IMG/VR virus record: IMGVR_UViG_3300017708_000814
Location: 1-20,461 of that record
From: a virus
Direction: 5' to 3' (one strand)
Length of the DNA stretch: 20,461 nt
Numbering within the stretch: the first letter of the stretch is position 1; each line of letters opens with the position of its first letter. Both the position numbers and the translations under genes were made by a program. The notes beneath the pieces were generated by a model. It ran no database searches and had not been told where the DNA came from. It saw nothing but the letters and a program-made list of their open reading frames with translations. Positions 3,958-20,461 of this stretch are shown here, piece by piece.

Positions 3958-5637
3958 TTAAACTGTATCTAATCCAGCAACATATACTTTACCGTAGAAT
4001 TCTGGTCTAACCATTTTCTTAGCATATCTTGTCATTACACCTTTTCTTGGTGTGAAATTAACAGGATCGTATACTAGTGGAGTCATAATTAAAGGTACGT
4101 ATGGAGCATAAACTGCACCAGTTTCAAGGAATTGAGCTCCTCTATAACCCATAAGGATTACGTTCTCTTTCATGTATGGATTCTTATAAACTGTGTATCT
4201 ATTATTGATTGAACCAATTTTTTGAACACCAGCAGCAAATTCCATTTTAGTACCATCTGTGTCGGCAGCAAATCCAGGAATAGATTCTAGGATAGTTGCA
4301 ACAGCAGGTGATGTTACTAAGAAATTAGCGCCACCCCTTAGGGTTTTTTGATGAATTTTATTAGATACTTTTTGAAGTTTAGTTCCTAAAGTTTGGAACC
4401 ACTCTCCTTGAGTATTATAATATCCACCAGCATCAACAGCTTTTCCTTCGAATGCTGTTCCAGCGGCATTAATAAATTGATTAGATTGAGCTGACCAATA
4501 TTCAGTTGTTACTGCGCCATTGATTAACATATCTAAAATTTCAAGATCAATTTCCATTGATACATATTCACTTAACATTGAAGTTAATTCAGCTTCAGCG
4601 TCAATTGAGTGATATGCATTCAAATCTTGAGCAAATTCAGGAGTCCAAACAGCCTTTAACTTTCTAGTCTTAGCTACGATTGGGTCTGATTGCATTTCAA
4701 GATTTACTTCTGGAATATTAATGTCAGTACCATTATCGATACCAGTATTAACACTTGATCCAGCAAATGGGTTACTATCTTCAAAATCACCTCTAGTAGT
4801 ATCAGATGGTTGTTTGCTATATTTAACTGTGAATCCTCTATGGGTTCCATTAGCTAATAACGCACCTGATCCTGTTGCTACAAATATTACATTGTCACCA
4901 CTAACTTTTGTTAATGCTGGGAATATACTAATTGCAGTTGCACTTGATTGTGATTCAATTGTAAATGATCTTACAGCTGTTGCATCTGATCCTGATAATG
5001 ATGAAAGTGGTAAAGTTAAAGTTTTATGTTCAACTGTATTTTTACCTAATCCAATAATATCACCATCAAAATTTAATGAAGCTGATGTTGCACTTGCAAT
5101 TGTTACGTCTAAACCAAATCCACCAGCACCTGCAGCAGATGATGTTTCATTGATTGAATATCCAAATCTACCAGCACCATATAAACCACCAGAAGCGTCT
5201 GCAGCATCAGATGTTACACCAAACATAGAGTTGTTAGCATTTGGAGAACCAAATTTAAACTCATTAGATGTACCACCAGTTGTTTCAAAGCCTGGTTGAG
5301 ATGTACCGTATTTAAAATCTAGATAAAATACTAGTCCTGAAGGTAGGTTCATTGGTTGTACAGAAACGAATTCTTTTGCTGCAAATTCAGCAAATATTCT
5401 TCTTACCAATGGTAAAGCTACACCAGCCCACTCTTCAGAGTTAGCAGATGTACCAGTTGATGAAGCTTCTTTCACTAATTGTCTAGCTTGATTTTCAAGC
5501 AATTGAGACATACCAGATCTTTGAGTATCTCCATCTAATCCTTCAAGAAGTCCTGTTCTTTCCCATTTTGATACTAAACCTTTAGCAGCATTTCTTTGGG
5601 AAGGATTATTGTCTTCTAATAAAGATGAAATTTCCAT
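3958..5637 (-). CDS. 23: Major capsid protein (gp23)
   Basis: The 559-aa product builds the hexameric head shell. T4-type gp23 signatures are clear: RRIFAEFAAKEFVSVQPMNL near residue 80, a long variable insertion, then KLKAVWTPEFAQDLNAYHSI (about 327-346), the helix SMLSEYVSMEIDLEILDML, VTSPAVATILESI, and the C-terminal run YKNPYMKENVILMGYRG through APYVPLIMTPLVYDP to RYAKKMVRPEFYGKVYVAG. The length is close to T4 gp23 (521 aa). The N-terminus should be a prodomain removed by gp21: LLE|G at residues 30-33 fits the T4 (L/I)xE cleavage preference, but this site is inferred. It follows scaffold gp22 after 19 nt and is followed by a hairpin. The leader has AGAAAG rather than a strong Shine-Dalgarno sequence. 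Confidence 0.97.
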   Translation of the reverse strand: MEISSLLEDNNPSQRNAAKGLVSKWERTGLLEGLDGDTQRSGMSQLLENQARQLVKEASSTGTSANSEEWAGVALPLVRRIFAEFAAKEFVSVQPMNLPSGLVFYLDFKYGTSQPGFETTGGTSNEFKFGSPNANNSMFGVTSDAADASGGLYGAGRFGYSINETSSAAGAGGFGLDVTIASATSASLNFDGDIIGLGKNTVEHKTLTLPLSSLSGSDATAVRSFTIESQSSATAISIFPALTKVSGDNVIFVATGSGALLANGTHRGFTVKYSKQPSDTTRGDFEDSNPFAGSSVNTGIDNGTDINIPEVNLEMQSDPIVAKTRKLKAVWTPEFAQDLNAYHSIDAEAELTSMLSEYVSMEIDLEILDMLINGAVTTEYWSAQSNQFINAAGTAFEGKAVDAGGYYNTQGEWFQTLGTKLQKVSNKIHQKTLRGGANFLVTSPAVATILESIPGFAADTDGTKMEFAAGVQKIGSINNRYTVYKNPYMKENVILMGYRGAQFLETGAVYAPYVPLIMTPLVYDPVNFTPRKGVMTRYAKKMVRPEFYGKVYVAGLDTV

Positions 5638-5656: not shown

Positions 5657-6691
5657 TTAAAGCAACCCGGCTAATTTTTTCCATCTATTAGCTAATTGGT
5701 TGCCTTCATTAATAATTTGTTTAGTTGGTTCACTTGGAGCTGTTGTTCCTGAAGCTTTAGATGCGAAACTTTCTTTCACAATCTTTTTCTTTTTAACAGG
5801 AAGTTGAAAACTCTCAGCTAATGTACTAAACACTAATTTTACTTCTCTTGTATTACCAGCTCTATCAAAATTTTCAATTACTGTCATTTTTTGATTTTCT
5901 GATAATTCAAAATTTCTGAATAATTTATTGGTATAAAGAAGTTTTGCATTTAAAAGATTAACTTCATTAATTGTGTCTTTTAAAGAATGAATTGTATCAT
6001 ATGCTTCAGTTAGTTCTTCAGATAATTCGTCCATTTTTTCTTTTGGTTCTTCTTTATCTTCGTCTTCTTCTTCAGCTTCTGTTACTATTTCATCATCTTC
6101 AGAAAGAATTTCTTCGATAATTTCGTCAATGTTAAAGTCTTCCTCTATTTTGTCATCAGAATCTTTATCAGCTTTTGCTGGTTCTTCTTCGACTGCTTCA
6201 GGTAATACTTCTTCAGTTACGTCTTCATCTAGATCTTCTTCTAGTTCACGAATTATTGCTTCTAGTTCTAAGTCTTCTTCCGTTGGTGCCATTGAATTAG
6301 CGTCAGTTGGATCTTCATCTGCATCGTTCATATACATACCTTCCATTGACATATCGTCAGCAGGTGCTTCCATTTCTGGGGCAGGTGCTTCCATGTCCAT
6401 TTCGGCATCCATTTCTGGTGCAGGTGCTTCCATATCCATTTCAGCTGCAGCATCCATTTCTCCACCTTCTTCTGGCTGATACATTACATCATGCTCATCA
6501 ACTGGTGCAGTCATGTCTTCTGGGGCTTCCATTTCTTCTTCGGCTAAGTCTTCGGATATCTTTGCGGTTAACATACTTTGAATTCTAGGAGCAAAAGCTT
6601 CTTCTAATGCAATCTTTGCGTTTGCTAATGCAGTTTCTTTAACAGCTTTAGCATCTGCGATTGCTTCTTTAAGCAAATCAGATTTTGCCAT
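5657..6691 (-). CDS. 22: Prohead core scaffolding protein (gp22-like)
   Basis: A 344-aa, extremely acidic protein expected to form the internal scaffold on which gp23 assembles, before digestion by gp21. The N-terminal helix (LLKEAIADAKAVKETALANAKIALEEAF) and C-terminal segments (LNAKLLYTNKLFRNFELSE, NFDRAGNTREVKLVFSTLAESF, ending NRWKKLAGLL) match the gp22 pattern of marine T4-like phages. The middle (about residues 50-220) is low-complexity Asp/Glu/Met/Pro, with a tandem MDMEAPAPEM-type repeat at about 83-109. It has a good ribosome site (AAGGAG, 7 nt before ATG), a long structured leader, and an upstream terminator, so it probably starts its own high-expression unit with gp23. T4 gp22 is 269 aa; the acidic insert explains the added length. 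Confidence 0.88.
   Translation of the reverse strand: MAKSDLLKEAIADAKAVKETALANAKIALEEAFAPRIQSMLTAKISEDLAEEEMEAPEDMTAPVDEHDVMYQPEEGGEMDAAAEMDMEAPAPEMDAEMDMEAPAPEMEAPADDMSMEGMYMNDADEDPTDANSMAPTEEDLELEAIIRELEEDLDEDVTEEVLPEAVEEEPAKADKDSDDKIEEDFNIDEIIEEILSEDDEIVTEAEEEDEDKEEPKEKMDELSEELTEAYDTIHSLKDTINEVNLLNAKLLYTNKLFRNFELSENQKMTVIENFDRAGNTREVKLVFSTLAESFQLPVKKKKIVKESFASKASGTTAPSEPTKQIINEGNQLANRWKKLAGLL
6353..6457 (-). repeat. In-frame tandem repeat inside the scaffold gene
   Basis: The segment encodes residues about 79-113, in which EMDMEAPAPEM occurs twice, followed by a partial EAPADDM copy. At DNA level the plus strand shows repeated CAGGTGCTTCCAT separated by similar spacers. Such arrays change copy number by slippage; here the unit keeps the reading frame and the acidic/Pro character. 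Confidence 0.7.
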
Positions 6692-6698
6692 ATTGTTT

Positions 6699-6704
6699 CT
6701 CCTT
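6699..6704 (-). promoter_or_regulatory. Strong Shine-Dalgarno site of gp22
   Basis: AAGGAG on the minus strand lies 7 nt before the ATG at 6691. It is the best Shine-Dalgarno match in the window and fixes the gp22 start. It matters for the ribosome finding because the candidate hosts (Bacteroidota) normally make little use of such sites. Confidence 0.75.
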
Positions 6705-6720
6705 AAATTTATTTTGGAAA

Positions 6721-6740
6721 TAAGATTATTGTGAATCTTA
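6721..6740 (-). other. Inverted repeat in the gp22 leader
   Basis: TAAGATT (6721-6727) and AATCTTA (6734-6740) form a perfect 7-bp stem with a 6-nt loop, and a third TAAGATT follows at 6742-6748. It sits upstream of the AAGGAG site in the gp22 leader. It could be a small RNA hairpin or a protein-binding operator; there is no T-tract, so it is not a terminator. Confidence 0.4.
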
Positions 6741-6818: not shown

Positions 6819-6849
6819 AAAAAAGCCCTAACATTTCTGCTAGGGCCTT
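6819..6849 (-). terminator. Rho-independent terminator upstream of gp22
   Basis: On the minus strand AAGGCCCTA, a 10-nt loop, then TAGGGC and TTTTTT. The core stem is 6 bp (GCCCTA/TAGGGC, 6841-6846 with 6825-6830), extended by flanking A-T pairs with one bulge. A second T-run follows at 6808-6814. It lies 22 nt beyond the stop of the bS21-like gene, so transcripts from the portal side are expected to stop before gp22. Confidence 0.85.
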
Positions 6850-6871: not shown

Positions 6872-7111
6872 TTAATCTCTATCATTTAATGATTGCATTC
6901 GTTGTTTATAACTAGCTTGAATCATTTGTTGTCTTTTTATAATACTAGGTTTAATATATTCTTTTTTATCTTTAAGAATATTTAACGTATCTGCAGACTT
7001 TAATTTTCTTTTCCAATTACGTAAGGCAAAATTTATATCTTTACCAACTACGCTTGATCCTATACTATGACCTGGAATAATTGTTTGATGTTGCTTTAAT
7101 TTTTTATTCAT
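6872..7111 (-). CDS. Ribosomal protein bS21-like protein
   Basis: A 79-aa, strongly basic protein. The stretch from about residue 24 follows the bS21 layout: KDINFALRNWKRKLKSADTL (compare the ALRxFKR core of bS21), then KDKKEYIKPSIIKRQQMIQASYKQRM, matching the ..Y.KPS..KR.....A.Y.. end of Bacteroidota-type bS21. A roughly 20-residue N-terminal extension (HQTIIPGHSIGSSVVG) is additional. bS21 is a small-subunit protein near the 16S rRNA 3' end that affects mRNA recruitment, and phage-encoded bS21 homologues are known. It overlaps the previous gene by ATGA and is followed by a terminator, so it closes the portal-to-gp21 transcription segment. Homology is judged by eye; an unrelated basic nucleic-acid-binding protein is the alternative. 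Confidence 0.68.
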   Translation of the reverse strand: MNKKLKQHQTIIPGHSIGSSVVGKDINFALRNWKRKLKSADTLNILKDKKEYIKPSIIKRQQMIQASYKQRMQSLNDRD

Positions 7112-7467
7112 ACTTGTGGGGGTTGAGGTGTAACTTGTTTTTGTATTGGTTTTAATGTAAATGCAAATTTTTCTACTTCTGGTAATTGACTTACAAATCC
7201 TTGTATTCGTTGTGACTCTTTAGCAGGATCTTCTCCTAATCTAACATAGAAAAAGCCTTTTCCAGCAGCATCATCAAATTTTGTTTTAATTACATGCATT
7301 CCTTTTTTATTTAAAAATGCTTGAATATCAGCTTTAACATTACCTGCAGTAGCAGGATCAATTAATTTATAAAGAAATCCTCCTTTATAATCTGATATTT
7401 TATTTAAAAGGTCAGCTTCTTTTATACTAACTCCGAAAAATTCATGATACATATTTTTATTTGGCAT
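7108..7467 (-). CDS. Conserved small protein of unknown function
   Basis: A 119-aa protein starting MPNKNMYHEFFGV. The predicted pattern is helix (KEADLLNKISDY), strand (FLYKLI), helix (NVKADIQAFLNKKG), strand (MHVIKTKF), strand (GFFYVRL), helix (SQRIQGFVSQL), strand (KFAFTLKPI), suggesting a ferredoxin-like alpha/beta fold, ending in a Pro/Gln tail. I do not recognise the family. It lies between a conserved 121-aa head-module gene and the bS21-like gene, to which it is joined by ATGA. The 42-nt gap upstream is the only gap over 20 nt without the ATATTTAT motif. Confidence 0.65.
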   Translation of the reverse strand: MPNKNMYHEFFGVSIKEADLLNKISDYKGGFLYKLIDPATAGNVKADIQAFLNKKGMHVIKTKFDDAAGKGFFYVRLGEDPAKESQRIQGFVSQLPEVEKFAFTLKPIQKQVTPQPPQV

Positions 7468-7509: not shown

Positions 7510-7875
7510 TTATTTTATTTCAAAATATTTACTTAAACCTTGGCCGATATCTTCATATGCAGCTGACATTCTTTCTTGCAATTGAGAAATTTCCTTTGCT
7601 GTTTTTTCAAAGACTTTATATGATTCATTTAAGCCTTTCATATGTCTATTAATAGTAATACCATCAAACCAATCGCCTTCTGATAATGTCATTTGTTGAG
7701 CCATCTCTACCATATATCTAACACGCTCACATAATTCTTGAAGATTGCCTTTTCCATAAACTGATTCTCCTAAATTTGAATATCCTTTTACAGCTTCAAC
7801 AAATTCACGCTTTTGTTCTTTTGATAATTGTACAGGTTCTCTTTCTAATGCTTCTAATATTTCTTTTATTTTCAT
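7510..7875 (-). CDS. Conserved T4-like head-module protein of unknown function
   Basis: A 121-aa, largely helical protein. It begins with a short amphipathic helix (MKIKEILEAL) and LSKEQKREFVEAVKGYSNLG, then VRYMVEMAQQMTLSEGDWFDGITINRHMKGLNESYKVFEKTAKE and a helix ending MSAAYEDIGQGLSKYFEI. The DWFD...NRHMK..ESYKVFEKT pattern recurs in marine T4-like phages in this location near gp21, always without known function. It overlaps the protease stop by ATGA, so the two are likely co-translated. A role in prohead assembly is inferred from position only. Confidence 0.75.
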   Translation of the reverse strand: MKIKEILEALEREPVQLSKEQKREFVEAVKGYSNLGESVYGKGNLQELCERVRYMVEMAQQMTLSEGDWFDGITINRHMKGLNESYKVFEKTAKEISQLQERMSAAYEDIGQGLSKYFEIK

Positions 7876-8498
7876 GGTAAAATCCTACATTTTCCATCAT
7901 CACATAATATTGATGTAATAATTTCATTTACTTTTAAATAGTTATTTTGTTTGTTTTTATTAACTGACTCAGTCATTGGTCGAAGAAATGCTCCATGAGT
8001 CGATGGATTTGATACAAAATCAAAACATATTAATTCAAAGTCTTCTTGAACTTCTACTGCTGATTCTTTATATAATTCTTTAACAGATCCTAATCCTCTA
8101 CTTGATATTCCTAATGTAATACCAGCATCAAATAATGATTTTAATATTTTTCCGCTAGGTGTTTCTAATATTTGTACAGCCCCTTTTAAATCATCACCTT
8201 CCCACCACATTTTTAAAATATTATGAGATACATTATTTAAGTTAACAACTGATGATTCTGGATGATCTAATTCTCCTAATGCTCTATTTTGTTCAATATA
8301 TTCTTTTTGATACTTTTGTGCTTCACGATGAAGTATATTTTTTGGATATACTCTACCATTTTGATTTTTAGCCCCAGCACGTTGTAACACTCCTTGAACA
8401 ACTAATCCGCCTGGTACTCCAAATTGTGCACCTGATTGCTCATTAACTGGACCAATTGGTTTAAATGGCATATATTCAACTAATAGTGACTTACTCAT
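7872..8498 (-). CDS. 21: Prohead core scaffold and protease (gp21)
   Basis: The 208-aa serine protease is expected to process gp23, the scaffold and other prohead proteins in the assembling capsid. Herpesvirus/T4-type protease features are visible: an N-terminal strand (GGLVVQGVLQRAGAKNQNGRVYP), the catalytic His in GELDHPE (His79), the nucleophile in GITLGISSRGLGS (Ser132 or Ser133), and FDFVSNPSTHGAFL near 159-172. The length matches T4 gp21 (212 aa). The ATG is set by TAGGAG six bases upstream, inside the end of the previous gene. It lies between portal and scaffold/capsid genes, in T4 order. In this family the protease also cleaves itself. Confidence 0.94.
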   Translation of the reverse strand: MSKSLLVEYMPFKPIGPVNEQSGAQFGVPGGLVVQGVLQRAGAKNQNGRVYPKNILHREAQKYQKEYIEQNRALGELDHPESSVVNLNNVSHNILKMWWEGDDLKGAVQILETPSGKILKSLFDAGITLGISSRGLGSVKELYKESAVEVQEDFELICFDFVSNPSTHGAFLRPMTESVNKNKQNNYLKVNEIITSILCDDGKCRILP

Positions 8499-8499
8499 A

Positions 8500-9192
8500 T
8501 TATTCTCCTAAACTTCTTACTCTTTCTGAAATTTTTAATAATCTTTCTGAAATTTTATTTAATGCGTTATGAGTAGACTTTTTATATGTAGATCCAGCTA
8601 TACCAGATTCATTTTTTAATCTAGACGTATATCTAACTAATTGTTCTATTTCTTGTAATTTTTTTGCTACTTCTTTTATAGTTCCATTAACGGTTTGAGA
8701 AGGAGTAGACTTTGGGTTGCCAGTTGAAAATTTAGAATATGATTCAATTAAAGCAGCATATTTTGCATCCATTGCTTTTTGAACTGATTCATATTTCATT
8801 TTCTTTTTCTTTTTAGCTTGAGCTTTTGTTGAAAATGCATATGGAGTTTGATATCCAGCTACTCCACCAGTAGTACTCATTTCAGCTAATTCATCTTCTG
8901 TTAATTCAATTTCTGCATCTGGATCTTGTTTTTGTAAGTCCATTGCTGTTTTTGGATCTGAAGTTTTTATAGTTTCATTAGCAGCGTCTTTCATATCTTC
9001 TTCAGTATCTCCGTCACCATCTAAGTCTAAAAAGTCAGGTTTAGCATCTTCTTTTTTCATTGCTTTTTTGATAGCTTTGTCTTTGACTCCCATATATTCA
9101 TCTTTGTCAGACTCTTGTTCGCCATCGCCATCCCAATCACGTTCATTTATTTCTTGAAATTTAGATTCTATTTCTTTTAAAAAAGATTTCAT
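8500..9192 (-). CDS. Prohead-core-region protein with EF-hand-like Asp motifs
   Basis: The 230-aa product occupies the gp67/gp68 position between portal and protease. Two calcium-loop-like motifs, DWDGDGEQE (19-27) and DLDGDGDTE (56-64), have the DxDxDG half-loop seen in EF-hand and dockerin modules but lack the usual final Glu. An acidic stretch, the MSTTGGVAGYQTPYAFST segment (105-122), a Lys-rich patch (123-133) and helical segments follow, ending with coiled-coil-like SERLLKISERVRSLGE. Related PDFLDxDxDGD segments occur in head-region proteins of marine T4-like phages. It may be a core protein removed by gp21; that is inference from placement. It overlaps the 284-aa gene by ATGA. Confidence 0.75.
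   Translation of the reverse strand: MKSFLKEIESKFQEINERDWDGDGEQESDKDEYMGVKDKAIKKAMKKEDAKPDFLDLDGDGDTEEDMKDAANETIKTSDPKTAMDLQKQDPDAEIELTEDELAEMSTTGGVAGYQTPYAFSTKAQAKKKKKMKYESVQKAMDAKYAALIESYSKFSTGNPKSTPSQTVNGTIKEVAKKLQEIEQLVRYTSRLKNESGIAGSTYKKSTHNALNKISERLLKISERVRSLGE
8505..8510 (-). promoter_or_regulatory. Shine-Dalgarno site of gp21 inside the preceding gene
   Basis: TAGGAG on the minus strand lies 6 nt before the gp21 ATG at 8498 and encodes the last residues of the 230-aa protein. It supports this start and translational coupling. Confidence 0.65.
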
Positions 9193-10080: not shown

Positions 10081-11904
10081 TTATAAAATATTATCTTCGT
10101 CTAATAAAGAAGAAGAATTATTTAATTTTTTGTCAGTTTCAGTTAATATTTTAGATTTTTTTGATGTTAATTTTTTAATAATATTAGCATTTTCCATTGC
10201 CGTTGCTTTAGTAACATTATTTTTCATTCTATCATTTGGCTGAAATGTTGATGTGAAATTTTTAGGATCTGTTCCTTGTTTTAATGTTTTTGCTCCGGTT
10301 GGATCCCATCCAAATTCATTATCATGTTGACCATATTTAATTCCTTCTGGAGGTCTTCCGCCTGTATCTTTGTTTTCTACATCATCTGTACTCATATGTA
10401 ATGAAGCTAAATCGTGAGGAGTACCATAAGATGTTCCAGTTAGAGTTGGATCATTTCCTTCTTGCTCAATTTGATTTTGACGGAATCTTAATTTTAGATC
10501 CTCTACTACGTTATTACGCTCTTCTAACCACTGTTCTTCAGACATATTAAATATAAACTCATAAATGTATTTGTCTGATAATAGTTTAGAATCTTTCATT
10601 GCTACTGCCAATTGAATCTTTTCATTCATTAATGCAACTTTTTGTTGATCATAAATAATTGATGGTGCAGTTAATTCTAATTCAAATCCTACTAAGTCTT
10701 CTCCTTCATATCCTTGCGAATATAAATGTATAATTCCTATTTTTACTAATTCAGAAACAACAATTTTTTGTATTCTTTCAATTGTTCTAGCAAATCTAAT
10801 ATCCATTGAAGCTAATGTAGTTTTTCCTTCAACGCCTTCATCATATCCTAAAAATGGCTTTGGTATTTTTAAAGCAGCCATCATTTTATTTTTTACGTAT
10901 TCGATATCATCTATACCTGTAAATTCCATTCCTGGCAATGTATCTATTTGTGTTTGACTATTACCTCCTCTTACAGGCAAGTAATAATCTTCTAACATAT
11001 TATTTAAATTAAACTTTAAATTATAATTACCAGTATTTTTATCTACATATGGAATTTTTTTCATTTTATTAATAATTGTTTCCATAAATGAATCTACTTC
11101 ATTTGGTGGAATATTACCAATATCAATTTTAAAAATTCTTTTTTCTGGCGCTCTCATTATTCTATGAATTAACATTGCATCTTCAAGCATCATTAATTTT
11201 TGAAATTCTTGTCTAGCTCCTTCTAACATTGATCTACCATATGGTAAAAAATTTGAATCAGATATCATTCTAAAATGAGCAATTTCAAAAACATCATATT
11301 CATCTAATTCAGAATAAGAATGTCTAAATTTAATTTCATACTCACCAGTTTCTTCATTAAATTCTTCTAATCGTTCTATTTCATATGCAGATAATGGTCT
11401 CGCATTTAATATTCCTAATCCGTCTGCTATATCCAATTTTAAATAAAAATCTCCATATTTACATAAATTTCTAATCCATGGCCACATATTAAAATCAATA
11501 TTTAATATATCATAATATAAGTTATGTAATACTTTCTGTATTGGAGTTTTGTTTGTTTTAATTGTTAGAATTTCTCCAAATTGATCTGCTAATGATGACT
11601 CATCTGAATATATATCTAATGCAGAAGATATAATAGGATCTTTGTCCATCATTTCATAATCTGTATATAATTGCATACGACTCTGTTGTGAATAATGATT
11701 TGAATCATATCCGCCATATGAACCTTGAGCATGTTTTCTAGACCCATGTAGTCTACTATATCTATCTGCTAATCTTGTTTGAGATAAATTTCCAGTAGAT
11801 TGTAATTTATTTGTATCAACTATTTTAAGTCGATCTTTGCCGTATTTACGAACTACTACATTAGTAGAGAATAAATTTTGTAAACGTTTTCTTAAAGACG
11901 CCAT
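10081..11904 (-). CDS. 20: Portal vertex protein (gp20)
   Basis: The 607-aa product forms the dodecameric ring that nucleates the prohead and through which DNA is packaged. gp20 features in order: YEMMDKDPIISSALDIYSDE, DQFGEILTI, the WPWIRNLCKYGDFYLKLDI segment, the conserved FRMISDSNFLPYGRSMLEGAR and LMMLEDAMLIHRIMRAPEKRIFKIDIGNIPP, then YVKNKMMAALKIPKPFLGYDE and GKTTLASMDIRFARTIERIQ. T4 gp20 is 524 aa; the additional length is a polar C-terminal tail (about residues 500-607) with LASLHMSTDDVENKDTGGRPPEG. The gene follows gp17 directly. Its 36-nt leader holds a perfect TATAAATA on the coding strand. Confidence 0.96.
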   Translation of the reverse strand: MASLRKRLQNLFSTNVVVRKYGKDRLKIVDTNKLQSTGNLSQTRLADRYSRLHGSRKHAQGSYGGYDSNHYSQQSRMQLYTDYEMMDKDPIISSALDIYSDESSLADQFGEILTIKTNKTPIQKVLHNLYYDILNIDFNMWPWIRNLCKYGDFYLKLDIADGLGILNARPLSAYEIERLEEFNEETGEYEIKFRHSYSELDEYDVFEIAHFRMISDSNFLPYGRSMLEGARQEFQKLMMLEDAMLIHRIMRAPEKRIFKIDIGNIPPNEVDSFMETIINKMKKIPYVDKNTGNYNLKFNLNNMLEDYYLPVRGGNSQTQIDTLPGMEFTGIDDIEYVKNKMMAALKIPKPFLGYDEGVEGKTTLASMDIRFARTIERIQKIVVSELVKIGIIHLYSQGYEGEDLVGFELELTAPSIIYDQQKVALMNEKIQLAVAMKDSKLLSDKYIYEFIFNMSEEQWLEERNNVVEDLKLRFRQNQIEQEGNDPTLTGTSYGTPHDLASLHMSTDDVENKDTGGRPPEGIKYGQHDNEFGWDPTGAKTLKQGTDPKNFTSTFQPNDRMKNNVTKATAMENANIIKKLTSKKSKILTETDKKLNNSSSLLDEDNIL

Positions 11905-11940: not shown

Positions 11941-13518
11941 CTACAGAAGCCATGTTAAATTTTCATCATTTTCGCCATTATGCCAATTCCATGCATCAGA
12001 TGGACGAGTATCATTTCCAGTATAAATTGTAGTATCAGTCTTTTGTACTTTGGATAATGCTCGTTTATTTAAGTCAATACCATGTTGTCTTAATTTTAAA
12101 CTAGTATCTCGCAACCACAATCCTATTGCATAAGCCATTACTAAATCATCATTATATCCTACTTGTGCTTGAGCTTTTCCGTTCAACCAAACAAATACAA
12201 ACAATTCTTGTATTAATCTTTTTGATTTTATTATTGGAGTTCCTTCACGCATATACATTTCTAATGCTGATATCATTAATGGTCTAGTTCTAGATGTAGT
12301 TGATACGCCTGGTACCATTTTTGTTTTATCTTTTATATCATATCCTTTTAATAATTGAACTTCTAAATCAACATATCCATCATCTTTATATGTATAAAAT
12401 ATATTTTCATAATTTCTATCCAATGCTGGTTGTATTGCAGCCCATCCAATGTTTGCATTCTCTATTGCTAATAATGCATTATTCCATTCAGTTGCAACCG
12501 TTACTAACATATTTCCAAAATCTTTTGGAGGTAGTTTACCTTTATATTCTGCAACTTGTGTTATTGTTTCTACATCTAAAACATGAAATGTAGACCAATC
12601 AGCTCCATCTCCACGAGCAACATCAGCTACAATTATATAATTTTTTGTATAGTCTGGATATTCCCATATCCAATATCCATTATCAAAACCTCTTTTTTCA
12701 ACTGGGTCTTGACATTTTAATTCAAACTCTTGTAATATTAATCCGTCTACAACAGTATGGCCAGAAGATATAAAGTCACAATCACATTCTTGAGCTGCTC
12801 CTCTTTCGCCTAATAGTTTTGTTTGATCATTTCTCCAAGATTGATCTCTTTCTGGATGCAAATTCCATTGCAGTTTAATTGTTTCAAATCCATTAATACC
12901 ATTTTCAGCATCTACCCATGTTTGATGAAACCAATTACCAATACCATTAGGAGTTGATAATACAATTGCACCACCACCAGTAGATAATGTAGCTTGAGAT
13001 GCTACCCATATTTCTTCAATATTTCTAATAAATGCTGCTTCATCAACTATTAATAATGACAATGCTTCAGAACGTGCGCCTGTTGACGAACTAGATATTG
13101 CTTTAATTTCAGATCCATTTGCAAATTTTAATGATAATTTATTATTAGTAACAATTTGTGTTTTTAACCAACTTGGTAAATTTTCATTCATTATTTGAAC
13201 TTTACTTACTAAGTTTTTTGCTACGTCTTGAGTGGTTGCAATGACTAAAACGTTAAAGTCTTCATTGAATAACATTGACCATAATGCATACCCAGCTGAT
13301 AATGTTGATATACCTAATTGACGTGATTTAAGAATTACATTATAACGATTATTTTGTAAAGTAGATAATGATTCTTCTTGGAATGGAAATAAATTAAATT
13401 TTATTTTTCCTCTGATAGGATGTTGTATATAACAAAATTTACGCATAAAATATACGGGATCATTCGCACATTTTAAATATTGCTCTTGTACTATCTGTTT
13501 TATATTTTTTTCACTCAT
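11941..13518 (-). CDS. 17: Terminase large subunit (gp17)
   Basis: The 525-aa product is the packaging ATPase-nuclease that docks on the portal. The ATPase domain has an adenine-binding-type FPFQEE (44-49), Walker A KSRQLGIST (64-72), Walker B LLIVDEAAF (155-163, with Asp159-Glu160) and coupling motif STPNG (188-192). The RNase-H-like nuclease has Asp299 in IIVADVARGDG, Glu353 in AIENANIG and Asp457/Asp458 in GYNDDLVMAYAIG. The length is slightly below T4 gp17 (610 aa). Walker A has Ile in place of the usual lysine before Ser/Thr; a lysine lies at the front of the loop, as in other terminases. It starts by ATGA overlap after a small membrane protein and is directly followed by portal. No recognisable gp16 precedes it. 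Confidence 0.96.
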   Translation of the reverse strand: MSEKNIKQIVQEQYLKCANDPVYFMRKFCYIQHPIRGKIKFNLFPFQEESLSTLQNNRYNVILKSRQLGISTLSAGYALWSMLFNEDFNVLVIATTQDVAKNLVSKVQIMNENLPSWLKTQIVTNNKLSLKFANGSEIKAISSSSTGARSEALSLLIVDEAAFIRNIEEIWVASQATLSTGGGAIVLSTPNGIGNWFHQTWVDAENGINGFETIKLQWNLHPERDQSWRNDQTKLLGERGAAQECDCDFISSGHTVVDGLILQEFELKCQDPVEKRGFDNGYWIWEYPDYTKNYIIVADVARGDGADWSTFHVLDVETITQVAEYKGKLPPKDFGNMLVTVATEWNNALLAIENANIGWAAIQPALDRNYENIFYTYKDDGYVDLEVQLLKGYDIKDKTKMVPGVSTTSRTRPLMISALEMYMREGTPIIKSKRLIQELFVFVWLNGKAQAQVGYNDDLVMAYAIGLWLRDTSLKLRQHGIDLNKRALSKVQKTDTTIYTGNDTRPSDAWNWHNGENDENLTWLL

Positions 13519-15711: not shown

Positions 15712-15719
15712 ATAAATAT
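15712..15719 (-). promoter_or_regulatory. ATATTTAT intergenic motif upstream of the Pro/Glu-linker gene
   Basis: ATATTTAT on the coding strand overlaps the TGA of the 720-aa gene and lies 24 nt before the ATG at 15687. It is one of seven intergenic copies. Confidence 0.35.
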
Positions 15720-17881
15720 CATCTAGAATACTTTAACGTTCCTAATATCTGATTTATAGGTGCAAATGCACCTGTTAACTTATATGTATTTCCGCCGTAC
15801 GTAAATACAATTCCTTCTACTGGCACTATTTTTTCAAATCCACCAAGTCTTTTAATTCGTTCTATTTGTTGTTTTACTAATTCCATTTTAGATATATCGC
15901 CAGTAGATCTAAGTTCACGTATTATTTGTGCAATTTCTTTTCTTATTGATTGTACTGCTGCTGCTGGATTTGCTGCTAAAAAGTTAGATGCATTCTTCAT
16001 TATTTCTGCACCTAGTTTTAAAAATATAGATTCAAATGGCTCAAGATTTTGTTTTTGATATACTTTAAAATCTTTTTTATCAAATAATGTAACCCATTCT
16101 ACAAATTCTGGATTAGTTATTTGTTTTTTAATTTTAACAATTGAATTTGATTTATCATTAAATGACCATCTAGTAACTAATTGATCTATAATTTCTTCTG
16201 GAATGTCATATCCTACATTAGATGCTTTTTCTTTTATAACGTCTCTCCACCAAGCTTTATGATATGTTGATACAGAATCAGTATCTTTTAAATTATACTT
16301 ATCTCGTAATTGATCTAATTCATTAAATAATGCATCTTGATAATCTTGAAAATTTTCTACAGCTCCTATTTTAATTTTTTGAGGAGGTATTAAATTAAAT
16401 GTGTTTTGCATATCTGCATTTGCATCTGTTACAGCTTTTTGTACTATATTTCCTCCGTCTAGATCTGTTTGCACTACATTTCCATTTTCATCATATTCAA
16501 CTAAATTATGAAATTGTAATACTGCTATTTCATATGCTATTACATTTTTTGTATCTGGATATATAATTTCCATATTTGCAAATACTTTTCCATTTTGAAA
16601 AATATTTTGTAATTGTTCTGGACTAATTTTTTGAAATGCAGCTGCTAAATCATTTCCTGCTTCACCAAATGCTGCAGATATAGGTCCTCTATTAGCAAAC
16701 TTAGCTTGTAATCCTTTTACTGATAATGGATTTTTTCGTTCTGTTTTATTTCTAGCAAATTTAACTTCACCATCTTTGAATGTCATAAATATATTTTGAC
16801 CGTCTGTTTTTTCAGTAACAGCTGATTCTATATCTAATCTACCTTGTAATCCACGCTGAATCATTTCTTTGAAATCTGCAAATGATAATGATTGTGATCT
16901 GTTTTTATCAAATGGATGTGACATATGTCCACCTAATCCACCTTCATTTAAATATTTTGTACCAAATACTGTTTTAGGATATTTATCAAAATTATAAACA
17001 AATCCATCTTCAGTGTCTTGTTTGTCTAATGCTTTTCTTAATTTTTTAATTTTTTTAGCATGTGCTTGAGAACCTTTTGGTGTCATATATCCACCATCCT
17101 CAAATAATTCATTTACATCTGCTTCTAATTCTTGCAAGAACCATTCTTGTATACCAATAGATTCTTTATTTATTTTATCTCCAGCTTTCTTTGCTGCTTT
17201 ATATGCTTTAGATCCTTTTTTAGCTGGTGTACCTCCACGTTTTCTTTTTGCACGAATATTGGCCCATAGACCATCACCTTCTCCCATTACATCTCCATAT
17301 GTCGGAGCTCCACCAAGCATTTGCCAAATATTTTTTATTATAGATTCATCATAATTAGGATAACTTGCTTTAAATTTACTATATGCATCTGCATTTAATG
17401 CTGCTCTTACAGTGGATGCAGATATTGCATTACCATCTTTATATTTTAAAGGATCAACAGAAACTGTTAATTCAATAGCATCTACGCCAGCTGGAATTTT
17501 TCTGCCTGATCGATCTCCAACTGTTTTATATTTGTCTATATTTGGTAAAAATGATTTAACACGAACATAATCATCATCTTTTTCAGATGCAGCTAATGCA
17601 AATTGACCTTGAGTATTTTCTGGCAATTCAAATAGATATTCATATGCAGCCATTATAGGAGAATTAAAATTGGTAGGTTGTATTTCAATGTTTGTATTTT
17701 TATTTAATAAATTAAACATTTTAATACTTGTATCTCTAGTTATACCATCTCTTTCTTTTGGGCCTATTAACATGATAACTTTATCAACATTTGGATTTTG
17801 AGCATATCGTTGTGCAAGAGCCATATGCGCTCCTGTAATTGGCTTAAAGCCTCCTGGAAATAATACTGTTACATTCTTCAT
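15719..17881 (-). CDS. NMNAT-like nucleotidyltransferase fused to DUF6267-type ligase-like domain
   Basis: A 720-aa two-domain protein. The N-terminal domain (1-190) has the HIGH-superfamily nucleotidyltransferase pattern: GGFKPITGAH (10-19, equivalent to GxFxPxTxxH) and ISASTVR (153-159, equivalent to ISxTxxR), as in NMN adenylyltransferases. A basic linker (GLWANIRAKRKRGGTPAKKG, about 204-223) and a helical part follow. The second domain contains motifs like covalent nucleotidyltransferases (RNA/DNA ligases): EKTDGQ with candidate Lys358, NMEII (436-440), EGIVF (689-693) and KLTGAF with Lys701. Preceding GGHMSHPFD and LQGRLDIES resemble DUF6267 proteins of marine T4-like phages. NAD+ metabolism or RNA/DNA end joining are possible; neither is shown. 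It has an AAAGGA site and lies after the methyltransferase. Confidence 0.8.
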   Translation of the reverse strand: MKNVTVLFPGGFKPITGAHMALAQRYAQNPNVDKVIMLIGPKERDGITRDTSIKMFNLLNKNTNIEIQPTNFNSPIMAAYEYLFELPENTQGQFALAASEKDDDYVRVKSFLPNIDKYKTVGDRSGRKIPAGVDAIELTVSVDPLKYKDGNAISASTVRAALNADAYSKFKASYPNYDESIIKNIWQMLGGAPTYGDVMGEGDGLWANIRAKRKRGGTPAKKGSKAYKAAKKAGDKINKESIGIQEWFLQELEADVNELFEDGGYMTPKGSQAHAKKIKKLRKALDKQDTEDGFVYNFDKYPKTVFGTKYLNEGGLGGHMSHPFDKNRSQSLSFADFKEMIQRGLQGRLDIESAVTEKTDGQNIFMTFKDGEVKFARNKTERKNPLSVKGLQAKFANRGPISAAFGEAGNDLAAAFQKISPEQLQNIFQNGKVFANMEIIYPDTKNVIAYEIAVLQFHNLVEYDENGNVVQTDLDGGNIVQKAVTDANADMQNTFNLIPPQKIKIGAVENFQDYQDALFNELDQLRDKYNLKDTDSVSTYHKAWWRDVIKEKASNVGYDIPEEIIDQLVTRWSFNDKSNSIVKIKKQITNPEFVEWVTLFDKKDFKVYQKQNLEPFESIFLKLGAEIMKNASNFLAANPAAAVQSIRKEIAQIIRELRSTGDISKMELVKQQIERIKRLGGFEKIVPVEGIVFTYGGNTYKLTGAFAPINQILGTLKYSR

Positions 17882-18520: not shown

Positions 18521-19245
18521 TAACAAATTCCGCTGCTAGCAGTTTGGCCATCTTCTAACTCTATTGCTTTATTTGCTCTACCAGCATCAACTCTAAAGTA
18601 TCCGTCTGGTGCATCTTCTGTACCTCCACTATTTGTATATACATTGTCACCAGTATTTTCAGGAAATGTTCCTGTGCCATCATGATACCATGTCTCTATG
18701 GCTACTTCTTCTGCTGCACATGCAGCATTTGCAGAACTAAAAGTGCCACCTTCAGCATCTAAAAGAGCTGAAAAAGATGTTAATGAAGGAGATGATGTTG
18801 CTTGAGATACCGTTGAGCCTTGTCTTTCGCCTAATGCATTTTCAGCAAATGATGTTATATAATATGTTGTGCCAGCAGTTAAACTTGTTCTTGATAATGT
18901 ATATGCTCCTGTAGAAGTACCTGATGCTACGACTCGAGTGTTTGATGAATAACTTGCATTTGTTCCAAAATAAAACCCTCTTTGTGTTATTCCTCCAATT
19001 ACGCCACCGTCAGCAGTAACATTCCCATTACACGTCATACTGGTAGTAGTTACTGAAGATGCTGCAGATGTTGTTACTGTTGGATAGTCTTTGTTTGCCA
19101 TAGAATTTAAGTTTAAATTTCCACTTGATGGATTTCCTACTGCATAGGTGTCAATTATAGTAAATAAACTTAAATTAGTTTGAACTTCAAAACTTCCGGA
19201 GACTGCAATTTGTTGCATTGATATATTATCACTACCTACTGGCAT
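18520..19245 (-). CDS. Fibre-type protein with FN3-like repeat, Bacteroidota-like
   Basis: A 241-aa protein starting at TAATG after the S74 fibre. Residues about 55-150 form one FN3-like module: YPTVTTSAASSVTTTSMTCNG, then NVTADGG, RGFYFGTN, and LTAGTTYYITSFAENALGE. This TVTTS..TSTT..GNVT.DGG...RG..... and TTYYV.. pattern is common in secreted Bacteroidota proteins. The C-terminal 80 residues (CAAEEVAIETWYHDGTGTFP, DNVYTNSGGTEDAPDGYFRV, TASSGIC) resemble tail-fibre ends from phages of that phylum, with paired cysteines. It probably binds or decorates the tail fibre, or recognises a host surface. No enzyme motif is visible. It ends in a TAATG overlap with the methyltransferase. Confidence 0.68.
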   Translation of the reverse strand: MPVGSDNISMQQIAVSGSFEVQTNLSLFTIIDTYAVGNPSSGNLNLNSMANKDYPTVTTSAASSVTTTSMTCNGNVTADGGVIGGITQRGFYFGTNASYSSNTRVVASGTSTGAYTLSRTSLTAGTTYYITSFAENALGERQGSTVSQATSSPSLTSFSALLDAEGGTFSSANAACAAEEVAIETWYHDGTGTFPENTGDNVYTNSGGTEDAPDGYFRVDAGRANKAIELEDGQTASSGIC

Positions 19246-20461
19246 TATTTAATCTTCTTTTTTAATTCGTCTATTTGTGTTTGTTGATCTTTAACTGCTT
19301 CTACAAGTACTGCAATAATTTTTTCATAGTCAATAGTTTTATATGTTTCATCTGGTTCTGCACCTTCCATTAATGGCATCTTTTTATCTTTAACTATTTC
19401 TGGTATTACTTCTTCTACTTCTTGTGCTATTAACCCTATATCTTGTTTGCCTTTTTTCTTGCCGGCATTCCATGTATATGAAACTCCTCTTAAAGATTTT
19501 ATTTTGTCTAATGCTCCACCAATTGGAATTATATTGTCTTTTAGTCTAATATCAGATACAGAAGTTGATGATGCTATAACATCTCCATCAGCATGAAAGT
19601 CGCCATCTGTTTCAAATCTAAATTCTTCAGTACTACCAAAATATACCGGTATATTAGCTGATGATGCTAATCCTTGTGCAAATGGAAAATTATCGCTCAC
19701 AGTTTCATCAATAGTAGGTAAGCTTGTTACAAAACTAATTGTCCAACCATCATCATAAACATCTACATCTGATGAATATCCTACTTGTACATCTCTGACT
19801 GTAACTTGTGGATAGCTCCATGTTGAAGTAGTTTCACCAATTAACACGCAATGAGAAGTACTATCATGTCCGAATCTAACTGTGAAGTTTTTTAGATGAT
19901 TTGTGGTTAATACCTGTGCTGTCTGATTAACCCATTCATTAGAACCTGCTTGCTGATAAGCATATCCTGCTACAAAAACACTAAAAGATTCATTTGTTGT
20001 GTAATCAAATATATCTACCCAGAAACTTAACATATCCGCAGGAGCTGTTCCAGCTGCAGATGGAATTGCTATTTTAATTGCACCAGTATGAGCATTAGTG
20101 CTGGTTCTCCACATACCACCGCCAGGAAATATAACTTGTCCTCCATATGCTGCATTGGAATTTTCTATAAATATTCCATCACCGCTTCCAAGTTTAATAT
20201 TTCCATTTACATCTATACCAGTATTATTAACTGTTAATCTTCGAGTTGAACCATATACAAATTGTAAGTTACCTGCAGAGTTTGTTGTTAAATCATTTGG
20301 TGATTCATATATTTTTGTGTTACCACCAGTCCAACTTAGTCCTTCGTTTGGTCCTGGGTCATTAAATGACATTTGGCCTACATTACTTATTGTATTGTTA
20401 TTTAAATTTAATGTACCACTCATAGTACCGCCAGCTAAAGGCAATGCATTTGCTGTATAAC
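19245..20461 (-). CDS. Tail fibre with C-terminal S74 chaperone domain, 5' end beyond window
   Basis: The frame stays open through the right edge (YTANALPLAGGTMSG), so the true start is outside and an apparent TTG start at 20444 is internal. LPLAGGTMSGTLNLNNN is a shaft motif of many tail fibres. The middle is beta-rich with receptor-binding-type sequence. The C-terminal about 105 residues form an intramolecular-chaperone S74 domain: VSDIRLKDNI (catalytic Ser297 in SDIR, Lys302, counting from 20444), the LRGVSYTWN strand, QDIGLIAQEVEEVIPEIV and a terminal coiled-coil helix. This domain trimerises the fibre and then cleaves itself off, typically before the Ser. The stop overlaps the next ATG by one base. 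Confidence 0.9.
   Translation of the reverse strand, partial: YTANALPLAGGTMSGTLNLNNNTISNVGQMSFNDPGPNEGLSWTGGNTKIYESPNDLTTNSAGNLQFVYGSTRRLTVNNTGIDVNGNIKLGSGDGIFIENSNAAYGGQVIFPGGGMWRTSTNAHTGAIKIAIPSAAGTAPADMLSFWVDIFDYTTNESFSVFVAGYAYQQAGSNEWVNQTAQVLTTNHLKNFTVRFGHDSTSHCVLIGETTSTWSYPQVTVRDVQVGYSSDVDVYDDGWTISFVTSLPTIDETVSDNFPFAQGLASSANIPVYFGSTEEFRFETDGDFHADGDVIASSTSVSDIRLKDNIIPIGGALDKIKSLRGVSYTWNAGKKKGKQDIGLIAQEVEEVIPEIVKDKKMPLMEGAEPDETYKTIDYEKIIAVLVEAVKDQQTQIDELKKKIK

Follow-up and report, generated by a model that had tools for sequence, protein, structure and literature searches.

A bS21 gene in the head module of a T4-like phage

The window, by which we mean the whole stretch of 20,461 bases that was analysed, is an IMG/VR fragment of a marine T4-like phage whose head genes all lie on the minus strand, in the order terminase, portal, protease, two small genes, bS21, scaffold and capsid protein (Table 1). 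The original prediction had placed a 79-aa bS21-like protein at 6872-7111, with no strand stated, in a late head operon; the position and the length are correct, the reading frame is on the minus strand, and the gene lies between the prohead protease and the scaffold of a T4-like module. No RNA family and no tRNA was found in the window. Elsewhere in it, a 720-aa protein (15719-17881, minus strand) displays an adenylyltransferase-like start (FPGGFKPITGAHMALAQRY) and a ligase-like motif, EKTDGQN, and gave no Pfam or PDB match, and a tail-fibre-like protein (19245-20444, minus strand) carries a C-terminal Peptidase_S74 chaperone domain.

Table 1. Coordinates of the head-module genes and of the elements surrounding bS21 in the window
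Feature	Position	Strand	Basis or remark
Large terminase, gp17	11941..13518	minus	phrog_2, E 1e-47
Portal protein, gp20	10081..11904	minus	phrog_213, E 3e-62
AGGAG before the protease start	8505..8509	minus	
Prohead protease, gp21 family, Peptidase_S77	7872..8498	minus	PF03420, E 1.4e-33
p121, 121-aa protein, conserved in this slot	7510..7875	minus	Locus comparison
p119, 119-aa partner gene	7108..7467	minus	Overlaps the bS21 start
ATGA overlap of p119 stop and bS21 start, without SD	7108..7111	minus	Shared by all window-clade loci listed
Phage bS21 gene, 79 aa	6872..7111	minus	PF01165 and TIGR00030 above cut-off; 7jil match; 33 viral relatives
Codons 1-14, extension beyond F. johnsoniae bS21	7070..7111	minus	Constant alignment offset
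Codon of Tyr68 (F. johnsoniae Tyr54)	6908..6910	minus	Gapless alignment
Intrinsic terminator directly after bS21	6822..6849	minus	-17.8 kcal/mol, z -4.9
Conserved leader element ATAATCTTATTTCCAAAA / ATAATCTTATTTCC, preceding the SD of the scaffold in clade members	6712..6729	minus	
AAGGAG before the scaffold start	6699..6704	minus	
Scaffold, gp22-like	5657..6691	minus	Assigned from position and acidic composition
Major capsid protein (MCP), gp23	3958..5637	minus	PF07068, E 4e-77

The search for a close relative among sequenced phages returned nothing significant, and among cultured phages Microcystis phage Mel-JY01 (56%) and Flavobacterium phage immuto (53%) come closest by terminase. bS21 occupies the same slot in Mel-JY01 and is absent from immuto; the latter has, at a place similar to that of the 720-aa protein, a longer protein annotated NadR. 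The terminase tree takes the form (immuto clade; (intermediate clade; (Mel-JY01; window clade))). Carriers of bS21 comprise 33 viral loci, plus another 26 found by way of the terminase, and the gene is absent from immuto-clade records of 126-167 kb and from intermediate-clade records of 266 and 136 kb. Wherever a window-clade locus spans the slot, bS21 is accompanied by p121 and p119 (short contigs aside) and its ATGA-overlap start lacks an SD; it is co-directional with the head genes wherever this can be judged.

p119 tracks with bS21 in the window clade and is missing from the immuto clade and from Mel-JY01. Its AlphaFold model corresponds to a predicted ferredoxin-like fold (beta-alpha-beta-beta-alpha-beta), and it contains an invariant Glu-Ala, preceded by a variable residue and usually by [ILV]x, which resembles the cleavage site of T4 gp21. 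We considered p119 as a second ribosomal protein, bS6: bS6 chains were among the top Foldseek hits, though weak ones (E ~1e-3, TM mostly ~0.5), hhalign gave a probability of 0.2%, and p119 had no Pfam, PDB or profile match. The fold being very common and a profile match lacking, this homology is rejected for now.

With 34.2 bits against PF01165 (cut-off 27; E 2e-8) and 29.5 bits against TIGR00030 (cut-off 28.95), the 79-aa product lies above the threshold of both families. Its best solved relative is the bS21 of Flavobacterium johnsoniae (7jil), with which residues 23-73 align without a gap over 51 residues (9-59 of the latter), so that Tyr68 is the equivalent of Tyr54, in agreement with the alignment of this residue to a Flavobacterium tyrosine proposed originally. 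In F. johnsoniae bS21, Tyr54 stacks on A1534 of the 16S rRNA. The site holds Tyr in 37, Phe in 8 and His in 1 of 46 distinct window-clade phage proteins. A profile of 45 members of the phage family scores 51.7 bits against 7jil and 49.6 bits against 9i5v, all other bS21 of the PDB remaining below 35 bits. The C-terminus had been described as Bacteroidota-like, and sequence comparison confirms the product as a bS21 homologue with the Bacteroidota signature. The reading frame is not a chance one, since it is retained in 33 related viral loci and comparison with close relatives gives a dN/dS well under 1, low in both the extension and the core.

The AlphaFold model (pLDDT 85) has helices at 26-40, 42-48 and 55-78, the places expected for bS21. 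When used as a Foldseek query, its best match has an E of 1.3, below significance, and the top matches are small-subunit mitoribosome chains, which we take to be bS21m. This is perhaps to be expected, because the helices of bS21 are isolated, without a tertiary core, and offer Foldseek little tertiary signal. The lack of a significant structural match would also suit a DNA-binding or virion protein that merely resembles bS21, but the scores above two curated thresholds and the strong profile match to solved bS21 make such an identity extremely improbable.

The N-terminal extension and the start of the gene

Beyond the F. johnsoniae protein, the phage product carries additional N-terminal residues that are absent from host bS21. 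An unusual extension of about 20 residues had been predicted: its presence stands, its length is 14, and phage S21 extensions are not unique, since Al-Shayeb 2020 (PMC7162821) also reports them. The conserved phage-only block reaches about residue 24 (MNKKxKQHQSIIPGxxxGxxVV), with M1, K3, K6, H8, G14 and V21 invariant across 45 distinct phage sequences. Among 396 sampled Bacteroidota genomes, 302 match the phage profile, nearly all from position 22 or later, in the range 22-26, and a few from positions 11-18; the extension is absent from host bS21 in the approximately 300 genomes covered by this profile search. Known bacterial lineages were considered as the source of extended bS21, and pattern searches in 85k genomes confirmed no relative. 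The conservation of a 14-residue phage-only extension in this clade appears to be new here.

The overlapping start of bS21 is not preceded by a strong Shine-Dalgarno (SD) sequence of the kind found in the autoregulated host rpsU; a GGAGG-type SD precedes most of the rpsU genes among those listed from the best-matching Bacteroidota. The ATGA start without a strong autoregulatory SD likewise appears to be a new observation. Downstream of the gene, the hairpin and T run of the terminator are conserved in 19 of 21 relatives, and the conserved element at 6712-6729 may be a late promoter or a leader element.

Shine-Dalgarno motifs in the phages and in Bacteroidota

Bacteroidia mRNAs are normally devoid of SDs and the ribosomes hide their anti-SD, rpsU being an exception with a very strong autoregulatory SD (PMC9976891). 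After de-duplication, we scored as SD any AGGA, GGAG or GAGG in the 17 bases preceding ORFs that begin with ATG and have 80 codons or more. In the bS21-bearing clade, 38.6% of 505 genes carry an SD (34-44% by bootstrap over contigs), against 11.7% after shuffling and 3.8% in an upstream control stretch, and the position peak lies at -11 from the ATG. The frequency is 6.4% of 327 genes in the bS21-less immuto clade, 11.1% of 440 genes in the mostly bS21-less intermediate clade and 3.3% in Flavobacterium loci. All 31 distinct scaffold leaders of the bS21-bearing clade are G-rich at the SD site (AGGAG in 28, variants in 3), whereas the true scaffold leaders in the bS21-less clade never are; for the protease, the same contrast gives 81% of 32 leaders versus 0 of 18. 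In partial genomes of the window clade, SDs precede 40 of 77 late-gene homologues versus 5 of 26 early ones (Fisher p 0.005, an indicative value, the genomes being related and non-independent). The strength of the phage SDs is moderate, about -8 kcal/mol versus -19.8 for host rpsU, and none of the 505 genes has an SD below -13, the strength reported for rpsU. A figure of 85% for the MCP was set aside, as it depends on taking the first ATG as the start and the MCP of the window itself lacks an SD. In immuto and its sister phages, SD motifs occur at 6% right before the starts and at 22% in the stretch 33-50 bases upstream, and Flavobacterium loci display the same pattern, as if the motif were avoided near start codons.

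The association of bS21 with SDs has exceptions on the tree. One subclade of the intermediate clade has SDs (48%), and its records G407 and G408 carry bS21, with Arg at the Tyr54 site in G407. In LR756508 (LR756508.1 164000-176000), bS21 is present and SDs precede 0 of 26 genes in the pieces examined; this 484-kb huge-phage record has a related terminase and a bS21 of a different type. The window-clade member G426 carries bS21 and SDs on 2 of 13 late genes. These last two cases rule out a perfect pairing, and suggest that bS21 may permit the use of SDs and does not require them. Furthermore, the gains of bS21 and SDs are few and nested in one tree, so that the correlation rests on few independent events.

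The host of the window clade probably belongs to the Bacteroidota, and a search for a direct link to a host found none. Of 40 Bacteroidota genomes, 35 have Tyr54 with SDs at 27 of 522 genes, four have Arg with SDs at 15 of 63, and one was unparsed; the sampled Bacteroidota with the best bS21 match show SDs at background (5.6% versus 5.7%). Compared with sister phages, Flavobacterium loci and Tyr54 Bacteroidota, the SD enrichment of the bS21-bearing clade is, on these sequence counts, apparently new here. A Tyr54-type bS21 in an SD-bearing phage constitutes a conflict: either the ribosome is changed by the phage or the host is unusual. A Polaribacter MAG (G011) contains two PF01165 matches on separate contigs, the second of which could be viral or a paralogue.

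A model for phage bS21 and its relation to known systems

The model we favour starts from the late production of phage bS21 alongside the head proteins. Host bS21, loosely held on the 30S platform, would be replaced by the phage protein, thereby generating a pool of phage-type ribosomes. The core and the aromatic residue 68 would preserve the way in which Bacteroidia bS21 contacts the 16S 3' tail, and the basic N-terminal extension, lying on the side where the SD/anti-SD region meets the incoming mRNA, would be the changed part of the protein, favouring phage late mRNAs and tilting initiation towards those with SDs. A phage bS21 is incorporated into E. coli ribosomes (PMC6375957) and, according to Chen 2022 (PMC9723584), the bS21 N-terminal helix sits where mRNA would bind. 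We infer incorporation into ribosomes and an altered choice of mRNAs for the present protein, and a late replacement of host bS21 that biases initiation towards phage late mRNAs seems to us a serious possibility, a little short of probable. Since the late mRNAs of the clade carry moderate SDs that ordinary Bacteroidia ribosomes would be expected to disregard, the likeliest bias would be a restored or tolerated SD recognition. More tentatively, the N-extended bS21 might turn SD-blind Bacteroidia ribosomes into SD-reading ones late in infection, a switch that the phage late SDs would exploit; a viral orthogonal translation switch acting through one swapped ribosomal protein would be part of this same tentative proposal. 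In F. johnsoniae, the loss or C-terminal alteration of bS21 increases the translation of SD mRNAs (PMC9976891). On the other hand, the retention of the aromatic residue that hides the anti-SD argues for occlusion and against release, and the moderate strength of the phage SDs and the separation of bS21 from SDs in LR756508 and G426 also count against the model.

The enrichment could also be an effect of the host, if the hosts of the clade use SDs, the phage SDs match them and bS21 is an ordinary supply gene. Indeed, SDs and bS21 co-occur in the Lys/Arg-site relatives Mel-JY01, whose listed host is Microcystis, and L410, the Arg-site Bacteroidota use SDs where the Tyr genomes do not, and host changes plainly occur among the phages of the terminase tree. 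We nevertheless hold this explanation doubtful in view of the Bacteroidia signature at the Tyr54 site in all 46 window-clade proteins, of the match to F. johnsoniae bS21 far above most other solved bS21, and of the background SD level in the best-matching Bacteroidota. A host-like phage bS21 that leaves the anti-SD hidden and simply tops up the late ribosomes, its extension aiding the competition for the site, would account for the conserved core and residue 68; F. johnsoniae requires at least the N-terminal part of bS21 (PMC9976891), and the phage gene, having no SD, would be free of host autoregulation. This role is unlikely, for it leaves the near-invariant SDs before the scaffold and the protease of the same phages unexplained. 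A role in the virion, raised for phage bS21 by Chen 2022 (PMC9723584), would have the protein packaged in the head, injected and active at once in the next cell. Its gene has head-core genes as neighbours and shows translational coupling to p119, with its protease-site-like Glu-Ala, but an [LI]xE cleavage site is missing from the bS21 extension, which is also, by eye, unlike the N termini of p119 and of the scaffold; we consider such a role improbable.

The purpose of phage bS21 has been a question since 2019, and steering towards phage mRNAs was proposed with no known mRNA feature to steer by. The clade described here offers a candidate for this feature, the SD, which is missing in the presumed hosts and in the bS21-less sister phages. 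SD reading by phage-type ribosomes is directly testable, because F. johnsoniae strains with SD and SD-less reporters exist (PMC9976891). Should the host prove to be an SD user, what remains is a new clade within an already known kind of phage bS21.

Earlier papers already describe bS21 in phages, its place in the head module, the Tyr54 and the N-terminal extensions (PMC9723584; PMC7162821; PMC6375957). An altered mRNA choice during infection was proposed by Mizuno 2019 (PMC6375957), Al-Shayeb 2020 (PMC7162821) and Chen 2022 (PMC9723584), and McNutt 2023 (PMC9976891) discusses such a change by phage bS21. In the literature searched, which leaves most subscription journals outside its coverage, we found no report on SD use in bS21 phages; Al-Shayeb 2020 contains a genome-wide prediction of SD sites related to rpS1, not to rpS21, and the available part of Chen 2022 holds no phage SD analysis that we could find.

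The jumbo myophages of Chen 2022 (PMC9723584) infect Bacteroidetes, express bS21 late and, like the window, carry it in the terminase/portal/protease/MCP region with Tyr54 or another aromatic residue kept. Their bS21 lies on the strand opposite to the head genes with a neighbour, bS21_CN, whereas that of the window is co-directional and ATGA-coupled to p119, and their jumbo genomes of 293-331 kb set them apart by description. F. johnsoniae bS21 (7jil; PMC9976891) shares the core and the tyrosine equivalent, but has 64 aa, no extension, and its gene is autoregulated and has a very strong SD. The bS21 of the Pelagibacter phage HTVC008M (Mizuno 2019, PMC6375957), likened by description and shown to enter ribosomes of E. 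coli, is of alphaproteobacterial type according to that paper. The rpS21 of the huge phages of Al-Shayeb 2020 (PMC7162821) has a basic N-terminal extension, proposed to aid ribosome binding or initiation; by description, the MNKKxKQHQSIIPG... block and the T4-like head module distinguish the window clade, which is undescribed there. Finally, the RpsU of Mel-JY01 (PP395634) lies in the corresponding slot of a related head module, on the same strand, and differs by a Lys at the Tyr54 site, a different N terminus and the absence of p119.
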